Shown here: positions 34,211 to 47,349 of the stretch, one piece after another | Layout: each line of letters begins with the position of its first letter | Numbering within the stretch: position 1 is the stretch's first letter | Assembly (NCBI GenBank): GCA_001897605.1 | Contig: MKTL01000006.1 | Coordinates: 287,780 to 351,779 of the forward strand | Length of the DNA stretch: 64,000 nt | Source: Clostridiales bacterium 38-18 | GTDB taxonomy: Bacteria > Bacillota > Clostridia > Peptostreptococcales > Acidaminobacteraceae | Reading direction: 5' to 3' | Program-made: the position numbers and the translations under genes | Notes under the pieces: generated by a model | Told to the model about the DNA's origin: nothing | What the model saw: the letters and a program-made list of their open reading frames with translations, nothing else | Database searches by the model: none

Positions 34211-35443
34211 TTGAGCGAAAAATTGAATGCCAAAAACCAAGAATTAGTAAAAGCACTTATTAAAAAGGGAAAGAAAAATGGTAGCTTATCCTACAAAGAG
34301 ATACAAGACAAGCTTTCAGAACTTGAAATCGATAAAGATCAAATCGAAGAAATTTACGAAGCGTTTAGTGCTATGGATATTACTATCATTTCTGACGACG
34401 ATGAGGATGAAGACAGCTCTGATCAGGATGACGATATAGATGATATAGATCTTGATGATTTAGAAGAAATCGAAGATTTAGATGATTTAGATGATTTAGA
34501 TGATCTTGATGATTTAGATGATCTCGATGATATAGATAATTTAGACGAAGATGAATCCGATGAGGACGAAGACGACGAGGATAAGGCAATCGATATTTCT
34601 GTGCCAAAAGGTATCAATATCGATGACCCAGTTCGTATGTATTTGAAAGAAATTGGAGAGGTGGCACTATTATCAGGCGATGAAGAGGTTGAACTCGCAA
34701 AACGCATGGCAAATGGCGATGAAGATGCTAAGAAGAAGCTTTGTGAAGCGAATCTTCGACTTGTAGTAAGTATCGCTAAAAAATATGTTGGTAGAGGAAT
34801 GCTTTTCCTTGACTTAATTCAAGAGGGTAATTTGGGCCTTATCAAAGCAGTTGAAAAATTTGACTGGACGAAAGGGTTTAAGTTTTCAACCTATGCAACC
34901 TGGTGGATCAGACAAGCGATTACACGTGCAATAGCAGACCAAGCAAGAACCATTCGTATTCCTGTCCACATGGTTGAGACCATCAATAAATTAATTCGCG
35001 TTCAAAGACAACTCCTACAAGAGTATGGTCGTGAACCACTTCCAGAAGAGATTGCAAAGGAAATGGACATGACAGTAGAAAAGGTAAGAGAGATTTTAAA
35101 AATTGCTCAAGAGCCAGTATCTTTGGAAACACCAATAGGTGAGGAAGAGGATTCACATCTTGGTGACTTTATTCCGGATAATGACGCACCAGCGCCTGCT
35201 GATGCTGCGGCGTTTTCTATGCTAAAGGAACAATTAATGGAGGTACTTGAAACGTTAACGCCTAGAGAACAAAAAGTTCTTAAGCTACGATTTGGGCTTG
35301 AGGATGGTAGAGCGCGTACACTTGAAGAGGTGGGCAAAGAATTCGATGTAACACGTGAAAGAATAAGACAAATCGAAGCAAAAGCTCTTAGAAAGCTTAA
35401 GCATCCAAGTAGAAGTAAAAAACTCAAAGATTATTTAGAATAG
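34211..35443 (+). CDS. rpoD: RNA polymerase primary sigma factor (RpoD/SigA)
   Basis: [57 protein letters not shown]; follows dnaG. Confidence 0.98.
34474..34545 (+). repeat. 9-bp in-frame tandem repeat (GATGATTTA-like; encodes (LDD)n) inside rpoD
   Basis: gatttagatgatttagatgatttagatgatcttgatgatttagatgatctcgatgat. Confidence 0.9.
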
Positions 35444-37144: not shown

Positions 37145-37184
37145 GTTAATTTGTTGATTAATTGACAACAGTTATGGAAATATA

Positions 37185-37218
37185 AAAGTGTAAGGAGTAA
37201 AATCCCTATACTTTTTTT
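37185..37218 (+). terminator. Putative intrinsic terminator after Nif3-like gene
   Basis: AAGTGTAAGGA...TCCCTATACTTTTTTT imperfect stem with T-run. Confidence 0.6.
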
Positions 37219-37346
37219 ATATTTAAGGGTATTTCCAATTATCATAGTAATACCGAGATACGGATTTTTATATTAGAAAAAGCTTTAAATGCATATATAA
37301 ACATTTTAAGGATATATATAGCTTAGAATAAGAAAGAGGTGACATT

Positions 37347-37814
37347 ATGTCAAAAAAAATGTGTAAACTTTACTCACTTGCTGAAAAGGAGACTAAGACA
37401 TATACAAAGTATGTATTGCCTGCTAAATATGTCTGTAAAAAATGTGGACGCGTTGCTAACTCAGATGGTTTGCTTTGCAGTCCTAAGGCGATAGAATTAA
37501 AAGAGCATAATGATCAGTCAAAAGATAAAGTTAAGCATAAAAAGACGAAAGACAAGGACGCCGAGGGATGCGATAGAAAGCACAAAAAACACAAAAAACA
37601 CAAAAAACACAAAGAGGATAAGAAGCATAAAAAGCATCAGACTGATCTTAAAGTACAAACTGATATATCGCCTTCAGCACAACCAGCATTGCCTACTTCA
37701 TCTTCATCAATAGAAGCAGAAGCTTTACACAAATATATCATCAAAGCGACATCGGGTCCAAACTCCAAAGAGAAGAAAAGAATAAAAGTGCCAAAATCCA
37801 AGGTTATAAAGTAA
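37347..37814 (+). CDS. Hypothetical Lys/His-rich protein with N-terminal Cys knuckle
   Basis: 155 aa; YVCKKCGRVANSDGLLC then RKHKKHKKHKKHKEDKKHKKHQ; good RBS (aagaggtg). Confidence 0.8.
   Translation: MSKKMCKLYSLAEKETKTYTKYVLPAKYVCKKCGRVANSDGLLCSPKAIELKEHNDQSKDKVKHKKTKDKDAEGCDRKHKKHKKHKKHKEDKKHKKHQTDLKVQTDISPSAQPALPTSSSSIEAEALHKYIIKATSGPNSKEKKRIKVPKSKVIK
37577..37614 (+). repeat. 9-bp in-frame tandem repeat encoding (KKH)n
   Basis: aagcacaaaaaacacaaaaaacacaaaaaacacaaag. Confidence 0.9.
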
Positions 37815-37905
37815 AATTTGTGTAAAGTGCTTAGCTTAAGATACTATTTGTATCAATATAAACGTATAATAGGTTTATAACAAGTCTCTCATATAGGAGT
37901 TCATT

Positions 37906-39417
37906 ATGAATCATCTTTTCGCCGCAATCGATCTGGGATCGAATGCGTTAAAGCTTAAAATTGTACAAGTGATCAATAACCAAATGGAAACCTTGGAGGA
38001 CATCTCTGTACAAATTCCATTAGGAGATGAGGTTTTTCTATCCAATACCATTCAACTCGAAACGGTTAAAGAAGCGGTAGAAACGTTGATTTATTTTAAA
38101 CAGGTGATGGAATCCTATGGCATCGTCGCTTATAAGGCTGTGGGCACAAGTGCTTTTCGTGAAGCAGAAAATGCAAAGAATTTTATAGAAATCATACGTA
38201 TGAAAACGGGTCTTGAGGTTGAAGTCGTAGAAGACACGATGGAGAAATTTCTTACCTATAAATCGATTAGAGATAATGTGTCCAATTATAAGGATATTCG
38301 AAAGAGTGCTTTACTAGTAGAAGTTAACTCTGGTAGCTGTGATGTGAGTATTTATAGTCAGAATAAGCTAATCAAAAATGATGAGATTCGATTGGGGACT
38401 AAGACACTTAAGTACATGCTAATTGAGCTTGAAAAACGTGCAATTAATTATCCTTATGTCCTTAGAGAAATTATTGAGACGCGTACCTCTCACATTTGGC
38501 CAAGTATAGAGGCTAAAAGAATTAAACATTTTATCGCTATTGGCGGAGAGGCTAAACAGGTTAAAGAGATTCTGTTTGGGTCTAAGGCTAATATCTCAAT
38601 GCAAGATTTTAAAGCACTATGTGTGAAGGCGCTTAACAACGATTACGAGCTCCGAAAAAAAGTTGAAGCCAAAGCGGTAAACTGGTATGAATTTTTAGCG
38701 ACCATGGTTTTATACGATGTATTTACTGACTTAGTTGATTCAGAATATCTAACTGTTCCCAATATCTCATTAAGAGATGGTATTCTGGCAGTGCTAATAG
38801 AGCAGGCATACGACTTAAATCGATATAAACACTTTAACAATGATATCTATCATCTTGCCTATGAGATCAGTAAACGATACAAAAGCAGCGAGAGTCATAT
38901 TAAAAATATAGAACATAATGCCTTTATGCTTTTTGAAGGTTTGAAAAAAACGTTTTCATTTAACGAAAGAGATGAAATGCTTTTACGGCTAAGTGCTATA
39001 CTACATGAAATTGGTAAATACACACGTATGAGAGATTATCTTATTACCAGCTATGAAAAGCTCAGTTCTATGGATATCTTTGGTGTAAAGCATAACGAAA
39101 TGCTCATTATCGCACATATTTGTAGACTTATTTCAAGCTCTGAAACAAAGCTGTATCAATTGCCACCAAATAACTTAACTGAGGATGAGCAAATACGTGT
39201 TTTTAAGCTTGCATCTATACTATCCATTTCAGACTCATTAGATAAAGGGAAGAAGCAGCGTATTGAAGTTATTGATACTGTAATCAATGATGATTATTTT
39301 TTCATCAATGTAAAAAGACACTCTGAAACCATACTAGAGGATTGGAGCTTTGAATTTACTATAGACAATTTTGCTAATACCTTTGGAATAATACCAGAAA
39401 TTAAGGATGTGGACTAA
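37906..39417 (+). CDS. Ppx/GppA-like protein with HD-like C-terminal region (possibly degenerate)
   Basis: FAAIDLGSNALKLKIVQV; VGTSAFREAENAKNFIE; full-length 503 aa but altered motifs. Confidence 0.82.
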   Translation: MNHLFAAIDLGSNALKLKIVQVINNQMETLEDISVQIPLGDEVFLSNTIQLETVKEAVETLIYFKQVMESYGIVAYKAVGTSAFREAENAKNFIEIIRMKTGLEVEVVEDTMEKFLTYKSIRDNVSNYKDIRKSALLVEVNSGSCDVSIYSQNKLIKNDEIRLGTKTLKYMLIELEKRAINYPYVLREIIETRTSHIWPSIEAKRIKHFIAIGGEAKQVKEILFGSKANISMQDFKALCVKALNNDYELRKKVEAKAVNWYEFLATMVLYDVFTDLVDSEYLTVPNISLRDGILAVLIEQAYDLNRYKHFNNDIYHLAYEISKRYKSSESHIKNIEHNAFMLFEGLKKTFSFNERDEMLLRLSAILHEIGKYTRMRDYLITSYEKLSSMDIFGVKHNEMLIIAHICRLISSSETKLYQLPPNNLTEDEQIRVFKLASILSISDSLDKGKKQRIEVIDTVINDDYFFINVKRHSETILEDWSFEFTIDNFANTFGIIPEIKDVD

Positions 39418-41474
39418 TGTATTTTAATAGAGAGCTGAGCTGGCTTGAATTTAATAGAAGAGTGTTATATGAAATGGAGGATTTGAAGCAACCATTACTA
39501 GAACGACTTAAGTTTAGTGCTATTTTTTCAACAAACCTAGATGAATTTTTTATGGTCCGTGTTGCTGCGATTAAGAATCAAATTAGTTCAGGCTATGAAG
39601 ATCCAGATCAAACAGGCTATACAGCAAAGCAAAAGCTTGATCTTATTAACGAAAAGGTTTCTGAGCTGGTCACTTTGCAATATGAAAAAACCATGATTCA
39701 GCTTGAAGCTCTAGCTACGAGTGGTATCAAAATCATTCATAAAACTCAGTTCACCTCAGAAATCATCACACAGCTTGAACAAAAATTCAACTTTGAAATT
39801 TTTCCGGTGCTTACACCTATGGCAGTTGACTTTTCTCGTCGTTTTCCATTAATTTCAAATAAAAGTATCTATATCGGTGTACGCCTTATGATCGGTATGG
39901 AATCTAAATTTGCCCTAGTACAGGTTCCAAATGTGCTTGAACGACTGATTAAGGTTACAAGCTGTAAGGAAAGCACCTGCTTTGTCCTTCTTGAGGATGT
40001 TATAGAAACATTTATCGATAAGCTATTTATCGGTCATCAGGTCATGTCAACCTGTCAATTTCGTGCAACAAGAAACGCAGATCTCAACATCGTTGAAGAT
40101 GAAGCTGAGGACCTGTTAATGGTCATAGAAGAAGCAATTAAGCTCCGTAAGTGGGGAGAAACAGTTCGCCTTGAAATTACGGACAGTTCACAGGATCCTT
40201 GGTTAATGAAGGTGCTAGAGGATGCTTTGCAACTTGATCCAACTCAAATATTTAGAGTGAATGGCATGCTGGATTTAACTTTTTTGATGAAGCTAAAGCC
40301 GCCAAAGGGAAATACTGAGCTTATACGTATGCCCTATAAGCCTAAAAAATATCCACCTATTGATAAAAAGAATCTGTTTAAAGCGATCAAGGATAATGAT
40401 ATTCTATTACACCATCCATTTGAAAGCTTTGATTTGGTCGTCGATTTTATAAAGCAGGCGAGTAAGGATCCACATGTATTGGCGATTAAGCAAACGCTAT
40501 ATCGCGTCAGTGGTGATTCACAAATAATAAAGGCATTAGCAGAAGCAGCAGATAAAGGTAAACAGGTCACCGTTTTAGTTGAGCTAAGAGCAAGGTTTGA
40601 TGAAGAAAATAACATCAACTGGGCTAAAAAGCTCGAGCAAAGAGGGGTTCATGTCATATATGGTATCTATGGCATCAAGACACATTCGAAAATCACACTG
40701 GTTGTAAGGCGTGAGAAGAACAAGATCAAAAGATACTTGCATCTTAGCACAGGTAATTACAATGATCAGACTGCTAAGGTCTATACAGATATGGGGTTAT
40801 TTACTTGTAAGGAATCCTTTGGTACAGATGCTTCTATCTTTTTTAATATGGTATCTGGCTTTGTCACTTCAGTTAATACGAATATTATGAGCGTTGCACC
40901 TTATACACTGAGACAAAAATTCTATGATTTAATCAATCGAGAAATAGGGCATGCAAAGGCTGGAAATACTGCACGTATTGTTGCTAAGATGAACGCATTA
41001 GTAGATCAAGAATTGATCGCTAGGCTGTATGAAGCCTCGAGGGCAGGTGTTAAGATTGAGTTAATGGTGCGAGGTATCTGTACTTTAGTTCCTGGAGTGG
41101 TTGGACTTAGTGATAACATCGTCGTAAAAAGTATCGTAGGTGAGTTTCTTGAGCATAGTCGAATCTTTTATTTTCAAAATCACCGATCACCAGAAATCTA
41201 TTTATCTAGTGCGGATTGGATGACTCGAAATTTAAGCAGACGTGTTGAATTGCTTTTTCCAGTTGAGGACCCAGTTCTTTTTAAAAGAATTTGGTTAACG
41301 CTACAGCTTTATTTTAAAGACAATCAAAAATCATGGACGCTCCTTTCAAACGGAAGCTATAGTAAAACGGTTGCTGAAAAAAATCCTGTACAGGTTCACG
41401 AAGTATTAAAGCATCTGATCTATGAGGACGATGCGGATTACAATAAAAAAATTCAAACTCTATTAGAAAGCTAG
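39417..41474 (+). CDS. ppk1: Polyphosphate kinase 1
   Basis: YFNRELSWLEFNRRVL; IKQTLYRVSGDS; GIKTHSKITLVVRRE; STGNYNDQTAKVYTD; start overlaps previous stop. Confidence 0.96.
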   Translation: MYFNRELSWLEFNRRVLYEMEDLKQPLLERLKFSAIFSTNLDEFFMVRVAAIKNQISSGYEDPDQTGYTAKQKLDLINEKVSELVTLQYEKTMIQLEALATSGIKIIHKTQFTSEIITQLEQKFNFEIFPVLTPMAVDFSRRFPLISNKSIYIGVRLMIGMESKFALVQVPNVLERLIKVTSCKESTCFVLLEDVIETFIDKLFIGHQVMSTCQFRATRNADLNIVEDEAEDLLMVIEEAIKLRKWGETVRLEITDSSQDPWLMKVLEDALQLDPTQIFRVNGMLDLTFLMKLKPPKGNTELIRMPYKPKKYPPIDKKNLFKAIKDNDILLHHPFESFDLVVDFIKQASKDPHVLAIKQTLYRVSGDSQIIKALAEAADKGKQVTVLVELRARFDEENNINWAKKLEQRGVHVIYGIYGIKTHSKITLVVRREKNKIKRYLHLSTGNYNDQTAKVYTDMGLFTCKESFGTDASIFFNMVSGFVTSVNTNIMSVAPYTLRQKFYDLINREIGHAKAGNTARIVAKMNALVDQELIARLYEASRAGVKIELMVRGICTLVPGVVGLSDNIVVKSIVGEFLEHSRIFYFQNHRSPEIYLSSADWMTRNLSRRVELLFPVEDPVLFKRIWLTLQLYFKDNQKSWTLLSNGSYSKTVAEKNPVQVHEVLKHLIYEDDADYNKKIQTLLES

Positions 41475-41480
41475 GCACTT

Positions 41481-42992
41481 ATGAAAAAAACCATCGCAAT
41501 TATCGACTTAGGATCAAACTCAATACGCATGAACATCATAGGCATTAACGAATATGGTGGTTATAGTATTTTCGATCAGGCTAGTGAAATGGTTAGGCTA
41601 AGCGAAGGAATGGGCACAGCGCTGATTCTTAGAGAAGAACCTATGCGTAGAACGATTGAAGCACTAAAATACTTTAAACAGTTAATCAAATTAAACGATA
41701 CGAAAGAGGTATACGCTCTTGCAACTGCTGCCGTAAGAATGGCAAAAAATAAAGAAGCCTTTCTATCACTTGTTAAGGAAGAGGTTGGACTAGAATTCAA
41801 AGTTTTAACTGGTAAGGAAGAAGCCTATTATGATTATTTGGGCGTCGTCAACTCTATGGAGCTGAAAACGGCATTGCTGCTCGATATCGGTGGTGGTAGC
41901 ACTGAAATTATATATATGGTAGATCGCGTACTAAAAGAATCTATTAGTTTGCCCTTTGGTTCAGTAACCTTAACGGAAAAATTTGCCGATCAAAAATCTA
42001 AGAAAAAGAGAATTGAAGCATCAACCAAATTTATTCAGGATCATTACGATAAGCTAAAATGGCTTGATCAAGTGAAAAACATCCCTATCATAGGGCTAGG
42101 TGGTGTCATCCGTACTATTGGAAAAATTGACCGTGATCGAAATGGCTATCCTATTGAAAATATGCACAACTACAAACTTCACGATTCAGAAATTGAAAGA
42201 TTATTTGATCTGATCCTTAACACTGAAGAGAAGGATCTCGATAAAATCAGTGGTATCAGTAAAAAGCGTGCAGACATCATCACTTTGGGCTTGCTACCAT
42301 TTAAGTGTTTGTTTGAACGAGTCGACGCACCTGAAGTTAGAATAAGTGGTAGTGGCCTAAGAGATGGCGTCTTCTATGAGAAATATTTTCCAAGTGTCGG
42401 TATGCCAATTATCTTAGAAGATGTCCTTATACAAAGTAAACAGAATATGATGCGTCGATTTGAGGTTAATGAAAAGCATGCAAGGCAAGTACAATCCTTG
42501 GCACTTGGTTTATATGAAGGCTTAAAATCATTGTTAAACGAAGGGCCATCAGATATCAAAGTTTTGAGTACTGCTGCATTGCTTCATGATATTGGGATTC
42601 ATATAGAATACTACGATCATCATGTTCATGGCTTTTATCTCATTCTAAACGGTCGCTTGGAAGGGTTGACCAATACAGAGCGTATCTCTGTTGCCTATTT
42701 AGTTGGCTCACATAGAGAAGCAGGTATTAAAGCTAAAATGACCGATTTTGAAGGCTTATTATCAAAATCCGAGCTAAATCGATTAGGTCAGCTGGTTGTC
42801 ATTATGAATTTAGCTGAGCATCTAGATCGTGCAGAGAATGGTGTCGTAAAGACCATTTCAGTCGAAATTTTTAAGGATGAGGTTGTATTACACCTTGAAG
42901 GCGAAGGAACATTTGAACTAGAAAAGAAATCGGTTATGAGATTTACAGAAAGATTTGAAAAGCAATTTTCGAAACGATTAACAGTAATTTAA
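41481..42992 (+). CDS. ppx: Exopolyphosphatase Ppx/GppA with HD-like C-terminal domain
   Basis: IAIIDLGSNSIRMNI; FKVLTGKEEAYYDYLGV; ALLLDIGGGSTEIIYM; ALLHDIG. Confidence 0.92.
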   Translation: MKKTIAIIDLGSNSIRMNIIGINEYGGYSIFDQASEMVRLSEGMGTALILREEPMRRTIEALKYFKQLIKLNDTKEVYALATAAVRMAKNKEAFLSLVKEEVGLEFKVLTGKEEAYYDYLGVVNSMELKTALLLDIGGGSTEIIYMVDRVLKESISLPFGSVTLTEKFADQKSKKKRIEASTKFIQDHYDKLKWLDQVKNIPIIGLGGVIRTIGKIDRDRNGYPIENMHNYKLHDSEIERLFDLILNTEEKDLDKISGISKKRADIITLGLLPFKCLFERVDAPEVRISGSGLRDGVFYEKYFPSVGMPIILEDVLIQSKQNMMRRFEVNEKHARQVQSLALGLYEGLKSLLNEGPSDIKVLSTAALLHDIGIHIEYYDHHVHGFYLILNGRLEGLTNTERISVAYLVGSHREAGIKAKMTDFEGLLSKSELNRLGQLVVIMNLAEHLDRAENGVVKTISVEIFKDEVVLHLEGEGTFELEKKSVMRFTERFEKQFSKRLTVI

Positions 42993-46086: not shown

Positions 46087-47349
46087 ATGAAAATAGGGCA
46101 GTTTGCGAAGCATAATAACGTCAGTATCGATACCATTCGACATTATATCGATTTAAACTTAATCTTTCCCGAGAAAATTTCAAGCTATTATAACTTTGAT
46201 CAAGCTTGTCAAAATGATTTTGATGACCTCATCCATCTCAAAGCACTTGGATTTACATTAGGTGAAATTAGTAAAATTTTGCTCTATAAGAGAATCGGTA
46301 ATTTAACGGATGTTGAAAAGAGAGATTCATTTCTGTCATTTTTTAAAACAAAATACGATTGGGTTAATAGAGAAATTGAATCCTTACTTACAACCAAGGA
46401 AGGACTTCAAGAGGCGATAGAGAAATTTAGTGAATCCAAGCCTTCCACAAAAAGAGTGAAGGGGCTGTCACTTCAAGGACTTGATCTGCTCTATTGTCCA
46501 CACTGTCAGACAAAATTGATAACTGAGTCCGGTCAGATCGTTCATAATACAATTTTTAATGGCCGTTTGATTTGTCACGGCTGTGATGAAGCCTATCAGC
46601 TTGAAATAATCGATGGTATATTAATATCTACAGAGCTTATTCCAGACACAGCCATAGACTTAACTCATTTAGCTTCAGATGCAAGCGAAACCTATATTGA
46701 TCAATATTTGAGATCAACTGATTCGGATTATCTTCAGAAGCTTTATGCCAGTTTGCAGTGGTCCGCTAGACACAATTGCTTTGATCATCTAAAAGATGGA
46801 GACGTCTCTCTAGAGCTAGGTTCAGGTCACGGCTATTTTCTCAGATATCATCTTGAGCTTTTTAATAAAGATATGTTCTATGTAGCGGTGGATCACGATA
46901 TTGAAAAACTCATTTGGTTAAAGTCGATATTGGATCAGCAAGAAACTAGGCTCAAAATCCTCTATATTTGCTCTGATTTCAAAGAAATTCCCTTAGCCAA
47001 TCAATCTGTCGATCTTTTACTAGATATTTCTGGTTCGAGTAATTACGCTTTTGATCACACTGACTTTTTATTAAACGATTTAGTGCCTATGCTTAAAAAT
47101 CAAGCAATGTTTCATGGCTATTATATACTTTTTGAGAAATTTGCAAAAAATTCTACGGTTGCGCTCGCAGCTAGATCAAACTTTAAGCTTGAATCCGTGA
47201 AATTGGCATTGGCACAGCTTAATTTGGATCTTATTAACGAATATATATCTCCACCCGTTACAAAGGGTGGACCAATGGAGAATTACTTTGTGTCAGGTGA
47301 AAGTGTATTTACTTATATCGTTAATGGTAAGTTTAAACCATTGGGTTAG
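46087..47349 (+). CDS. MerR-family HTH + zinc-ribbon + SAM-dependent methyltransferase fusion
   Basis: MKIGQFAKHNNVSIDTIRHYIDLNLIFP (MerR HTH); CPHC...CHGC; LELGSGHGYFLRYHL (SAM motif I). Confidence 0.82.
   Translation: MKIGQFAKHNNVSIDTIRHYIDLNLIFPEKISSYYNFDQACQNDFDDLIHLKALGFTLGEISKILLYKRIGNLTDVEKRDSFLSFFKTKYDWVNREIESLLTTKEGLQEAIEKFSESKPSTKRVKGLSLQGLDLLYCPHCQTKLITESGQIVHNTIFNGRLICHGCDEAYQLEIIDGILISTELIPDTAIDLTHLASDASETYIDQYLRSTDSDYLQKLYASLQWSARHNCFDHLKDGDVSLELGSGHGYFLRYHLELFNKDMFYVAVDHDIEKLIWLKSILDQQETRLKILYICSDFKEIPLANQSVDLLLDISGSSNYAFDHTDFLLNDLVPMLKNQAMFHGYYILFEKFAKNSTVALAARSNFKLESVKLALAQLNLDLINEYISPPVTKGGPMENYFVSGESVFTYIVNGKFKPLG

Follow-up and report, generated by a model that had tools for sequence, protein, structure and literature searches.

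A small four-cysteine protein family encoded beside polyphosphate genes in several phyla, with a Lys/His-tailed member in Clostridiales bacterium 38-18

Introduction

To our knowledge, few dedicated non-enzymatic polyphosphate (polyP) factors are known, namely CHAD proteins, AlgP and PhaM/PptA. CHAD proteins are basic polyP binders encoded in polyP gene clusters (PMC6537752). AlgP of Pseudomonas aeruginosa has a basic tail that is required for granule spacing (PMC9239181). In E. coli, disordered segments rich in lysine are able to bind polyP (PMC12345225), the contact with lysine tracts being held non-covalent in recent work (discussed in PMC12345225). The PASK motif is defined by D/E/S/K making up at least 75% (15/20) of a 20-residue window that includes one K (PMC12345225). 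His-rich proteins bind polyP as well (PMC11094774).

Here we analyze a 64,000-nt stretch of DNA (the window) from Clostridiales bacterium 38-18, whose genome is of the Fusibacter type. In this stretch, a protein with four conserved cysteines and a Lys/His-rich tail is encoded next to polyP genes.

Results

Organization of the locus

An initial annotation had pointed to a 155-aa ORF with a Cys motif and a Lys/His (K/H) tract, lying upstream of ppx-like, ppk1 and ppx genes in the same orientation. Reading of the sequence and Pfam/NCBIfam searches confirmed this arrangement, the relevant features of which are as follows.

37178..37224, + strand: possible terminator, a hairpin with a U-run between nif3 and the four-Cys gene
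37333-37342, + strand: likely ribosome-binding site AAAGAGGTGA, read in the sequence
37347-37814, + strand: four-Cys gene, 155-aa ORF with ATG start, called from the sequence
37347..37502, + strand: four-Cys core, residues 1-52, with Cys 6, 30, 33 and 44 (alignments A1 and A2; AlphaFold)
37503..37811, + strand: Lys/His-rich C-terminal tail, residues 53-155 (composition; low pLDDT for most of it)
37577-37613, + strand: 9-bp tandem repeat AAAACACAA x 4.1, inside the K/H tract (repeat search)
37578..37640, + strand: K/H tract KHKKHKKHKKHKEDKKHKKHQ, residues 78-98 (sequence, composition)
37906..39417, + strand: ppxL, Ppx/GppA-family protein with degenerate active-site motifs (Pfam PF02541, 1.4e-16)
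39417..41474, + strand: ppk1, polyphosphate kinase 1 (TIGR03705, 849 bits, over the cut-off)
41481..42992, + strand: ppx, canonical exopolyphosphatase/GppA family (PF02541, 1.5e-53; DIGGGS motif present)

The four-Cys gene is preceded by dnaG, rpoD, a trmK-like gene and nif3 and followed by ppxL, ppk1 and ppx, all on the + strand. The RpoD protein (34211-35443) carries a long acidic Asp-Asp-Leu repeat stretch close to its N-terminus. Elsewhere in the window, a 420-aa ORF (46087-47349) seems, as judged by eye, to join a MerR-type N-terminus to a zinc-ribbon-like segment and a methyltransferase-like domain.

Two transcription signals proposed in the initial annotation stood in part. Where a terminator had been placed (37185-37218), a hairpin at about 37178-37224 carries a U7 run and is more stable than shuffled sequences (-13.1 kcal/mol, z = -2.5), but a consensus terminator scan made no call; termination upstream of the four-Cys gene is plausible, not certain. 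The ppx-like gene had been described as lying 92 bp downstream with its own -10 element. The gap is 91 bp, and TATAAT is indeed present upstream of ppxL (37865-37870), but a promoter scan found no -35 to match it. The spacing between the two genes is 3-4 bp at the loci of four relatives.

In the ppxL product, alignment places VEVNSGS at the position of DIGGGS and EDTMEKF at that of G-x-EEA, and the Fusibacter orthologues keep the same degeneracy; the protein is possibly a sensor or a binder. A degenerate Ppx also adjoins ppk1 in Propionigenium maris (L062:2095-3630, - strand). The conserved loss of these motifs and the similar pairing in P. maris suggest a pseudo-exopolyphosphatase that is conserved and pairs with PPK1.

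A conserved four-Cys core

Relatives of the window protein align to its first 50-70 residues or so and to nothing beyond. Homologues are mostly 50-65 aa long, stopping shortly after the Cys domain, and the closest ones measure 53-81 aa. The family consensus reads K-x-LCK...Y...LV..p.yvCKKCGRvA....LCKPKKI, and the window protein fits the corresponding signature (Cys 6, 30 and 33, Cys/His 44, CxKCxR motif), its fifth cysteine being a stray C75. Across 63 members (alignments A1 and A2), C6, C30, C33 and G34 are invariant, while position 44 is C in 58 members and H in five, the latter change being confined to one polyP-linked clade of the tree. Since zinc coordination tolerates replacement of Cys by His at this position, the core likely binds a metal, putatively zinc, through a Cys4/Cys3His site. 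AlphaFold predicts two helices and, after them, short strands that surround the Cys residues, with pLDDT about 80-94 over residues 1-50.

Residues 1-52 had no match in Pfam or NCBIfam, and scans of all 63 members against both collections gave scattered weak zinc-finger matches at most. No relative was found by PDB sequence search or Foldseek (best E 5.1; all E above 5). The RCKP-type rubredoxin-like domain (NF045720), for which an NCBIfam match over the cut-off was required, was considered and rejected: only two of the 63 members match it (best E-value 0.0043), and the window protein is not one of them. Literature searches returned no description of a small four-Cys family of this kind, so that neither the models nor the papers we searched describe it.

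Linkage to polyP genes within the family Acidaminobacteraceae

Among 41 genomes of the window's taxonomic family, 15 contain the four-Cys gene (one via a weak match), and in 12 of these the gene lies just upstream of ppxL-ppk1. The adjacency also holds in genera without the upstream dnaG-rpoD-nif3 block, indicating that it is not mere inherited synteny of that block. The gene is present in 14/26 ppk1-positive genomes versus 1/15 ppk1-negative ones (Fisher p 0.003, uncorrected for relatedness). One genome from the same genus as the window (G003) has neither the four-Cys gene nor ppk1; two others in the family (G019 and G031) have ppk1, yet carry the four-Cys gene away from it. In two Fusibacter genomes, a CHAD gene is found immediately upstream of the four-Cys gene.

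Linkage in other lineages

A broad scan of 84,980 species genomes produced 71 loci, ten of the Fusibacter type and 61 others. Twelve of the 61 sit in polyP clusters, as confirmed by Pfam analysis of the neighbours. These linked relatives occur in Fusobacteriota, Deferribacterota, another Bacillota lineage and several desulfobacterial/deltaproteobacterial lineages, with genes for PPK1, PPK2, PPX, CHAD, CYTH or SixA beside them. The P. maris cluster comprises ppk1, the degenerate ppx, ppx, CHAD and Cys4; in a Deferribacteraceae genome (L071) the Cys4 gene is convergent with ppk1, and a Bacillota genome (L083) has the order PPK2-ppx-ppk1-Cys4. Three loci (L066, L074 and L103) read Cys4-PPK2-ppx, and one (L095) reads ppk1-CHAD-ParA-Cys4-SixA-Lys-rich protein. 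Neighbours at the desulfobacterial/deltaproteobacterial loci are PPK2, SixA, CYTH, ParA-like, CHAD or ppk1.

The initial annotation held that homologues lying mostly away from ppk/ppx and lacking the K/H tract would speak against a polyP role. In the broad scan, 49 of the 71 loci have no polyP linkage, yet 12 of the 15 gene-bearing genomes of the window's family and loci in several phyla do show it, so that the link extends beyond a chance neighbourhood. A partly independent sample of 146 genomes, taken from the order to which the L095 genome belongs, was also analyzed. Here, 8/21 strong matches are polyP-linked within 1.5 kb (6/19 without two already known loci), as against 0/9 weak matches, which are other Cys proteins. 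Three of the strong matches had been missed by the motif search and, on direct reading, carry a CxKCxR variant of the domain. Given an assumed background, itself an estimate, of 1-3% per locus, the linkage is far from chance.

On a weakly resolved tree built from 57 columns, the linkage label needs 10 changes versus 22 in shuffles. One clade, which includes the C44H change, is linked in 8/8 members and another in 3/3, and an 18-member clade has none. This clustering indicates that linkage is a trait of certain lineages, not of the whole family. A random even draw across the phylum found members in 5/399 genomes, including the window's own; two of the others are convincing. At two loci (L058 and L100) the family member is flanked by a serine hydroxymethyltransferase-like gene on one side and an MFS transporter gene on the other, a second conserved context, which is not related to polyP.

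The Lys/His tail and separate lysine-rich proteins

The tail of the window protein is predicted to be mostly disordered (AlphaFold, low pLDDT). Residues 53-100 include 19 K and 8 H, and the K/H tract has K or H at 18/20 residues. The DNA pattern of the tract has no second occurrence in the 3.4-Mb genome. No homologue has the window protein's tail, and the tract is limited to one species. The co-occurrence of K/H repeats with ppk1, proposed as a check in the initial annotation, did not materialize; the tract is, among the sequences compared, a species-specific embellishment. Two relatives from the same genus (L015 and L018) have modest Lys-rich tails, shorter than that of the window protein. 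A comparison across all members did not bear out K-rich tails as a general feature of polyP-linked ones: K/R-rich tails are not significantly commoner in linked members than in the others (p about 0.06-0.09).

The broader lysine-rich theme of the initial annotation fared better, as Lys-rich proteins recur in four-Cys polyP clusters. In seven of the eight members of the C44H clade (loci L078, L089, L090, L095, L122, L123 and L124), the Cys4 gene has beside it, or close by, a separate gene for a Lys-rich AlgP-like protein of 58-152 aa. Short AlgP/H1-like Lys-rich ORFs (L095:7720-8178, L090:7709-8029, L078:731-937 and L089:7300-7551) share polyP clusters with CHAD, ParA-like, SixA or PPK2 genes. 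Some desulfobacterial PPK2 proteins have long Lys-rich N-terminal tails (L078:2533-3543, L089:8891-9817 and L095:11394-12395). The window protein looks like a Cys4 core with a basic polymer-binding element attached; however, its tail has no detectable similarity to the separate desulfobacterial Lys-rich protein, and such a "fusion" is therefore an analogy, not a homology. We also abandoned the idea that the tail simply makes up for a missing CHAD protein, since other contigs of the same genome encode a PPK2 as well as a weak CHAD protein.

Comparison with described polyP binders

One of the closest likenesses is to AlgP, which has a folded N-terminal part, a disordered, repetitive Lys-rich tail and a tie to polyP (PMC9239181). 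By prediction and composition the window protein has the AlgP/H1-like layout, a disordered Lys-rich C-terminal tail behind a folded N-terminal domain, and would resemble AlgP in the way it works only. AlgP differs in its helical N-terminus of 124 aa, its KPAA repeats and its lack of a Cys4 domain, whereas the window protein has no KPAA repeats and no Pfam match to an AlgP/PhaF-type family. Moreover, AlgP was identified by granule proteomics, whereas the polyP link of the window protein is known from genomes alone. CHAD proteins (phosins, PptA) are related through context, their genes adjoining the four-Cys gene at some loci, but the CHAD domain is helical, spans 228 profile positions and has conserved His, and the Pfam scan found no CHAD (PF05235) match in the 155-aa protein.

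The initial annotation had also invoked PASK-type motifs and histidine repeats, and neither description applies to the tract. A disordered Lys-rich segment is common to the window protein and to PASK or other lysine-rich polyP binders (YihI, RNase R), but the tract reaches a maximum of 14/20 D/E/S/K, below the 15/20 required. With histidine-repeat polyP binders it has a His-rich segment in common; its His residues, however, alternate with Lys (K-H-K-K) rather than being consecutive, no HH occurring anywhere in the protein.

Discussion

The recurrence of core relatives beside polyP genes in several phyla makes the window protein a probable, hitherto unrecognized part of the polyP system. Gene neighbourhood supports the initial annotation's guess of a polyP-related protein, chiefly by way of the Cys core and not of the K/H tract. 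As to how the window protein might act, we would give about an even chance to its being an accessory protein of this system, in which a zinc core docks and a basic tail binds polyP non-covalently. In polyP-linked lineages, the putative zinc-binding core (residues 1-52) would dock on the Ppx-like protein, on PPK1 or on the granule, PpxL, with active-site motifs that are degenerate in the Fusibacter orthologues, being a good candidate partner. The disordered Lys/His tail would then bind the polyP chain electrostatically, as the AlgP tail or the CHAD domain does, and might tether, space or buffer polyP near Ppk/Ppx, possibly at granules. More tentatively, and with somewhat less confidence, the four-Cys domain may be an undescribed zinc module that is dedicated to polyP in several phyla, and as such a novel kind of phosin, paired with a basic polymer-binding element; this element would be a CHAD protein, a Lys-rich protein of AlgP type encoded separately or, here, the protein's own Lys/His tail.

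Several findings weigh against the accessory-protein reading: the K/H tract is confined to one species, K/R-rich tails are not significantly commoner in polyP-linked members, 49 of the 71 broad-scan loci lack polyP linkage, the gene lies away from ppk1 in G019 and G031 and is convergent with it in L071, and the structure search found no relative. Alternatively, the core could be the working part in polyP metabolism, for example as a small protein that regulates PpxL/PPK1 or helps in their assembly, with the tail a recent, near-neutral expansion of low-complexity sequence by slippage. That the tail is unique to one species and made in part of AAAACACAA repeats, that the closest relatives function at 53-81 aa and that tails are not significantly tied to polyP linkage all fit such a scheme, but the 103-residue tail is not repeat throughout, and the modest Lys-rich tails of L015 and L018, as well as the Lys-rich partners in distant polyP clusters, tell against it. 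We consider this alternative rather unlikely.

Less probable still is that the protein is a small zinc protein acting on nucleic acids, either on the nucleoid in the manner of AlgP/histone H1 or on RNA or the ribosome, and placed in a polyP operon by chance. Basic four-Cys proteins commonly bind nucleic acids, many family members adjoin non-polyP genes, and the best fold matches, very weak and not significant, are small ribosomal proteins in eukaryotic 80S structures; against chance placement stands the linkage to PPK1, PPK2, PPX, CHAD or SixA, repeated in several phyla. Least probable of all, and in our view a long shot, is a metal-handling protein whose His-x-x-His tract and Cys site would act as a buffer for Zn/Ni/Co or transfer metal to polyP, a known metal chelator: the protein has His at every third residue of the tract, five Cys and a Cys4 site, but the His tract is missing from all relatives, polyP-linked ones included, and no metal transporter or metalloregulator was recognized among the conserved neighbours.

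The more interesting object is the small four-Cys family rather than the K/H tract. The Lys/His tail would lend itself to testing whether mixed K/H tracts, which neither published motif covers, bind polyP. How bacterial polyP granules are organized, and how Ppk and Ppx are recruited or restrained, are largely open questions, for which a tiny conserved zinc-finger-like protein inside the polyP clusters of several phyla provides a cheap and testable handle.
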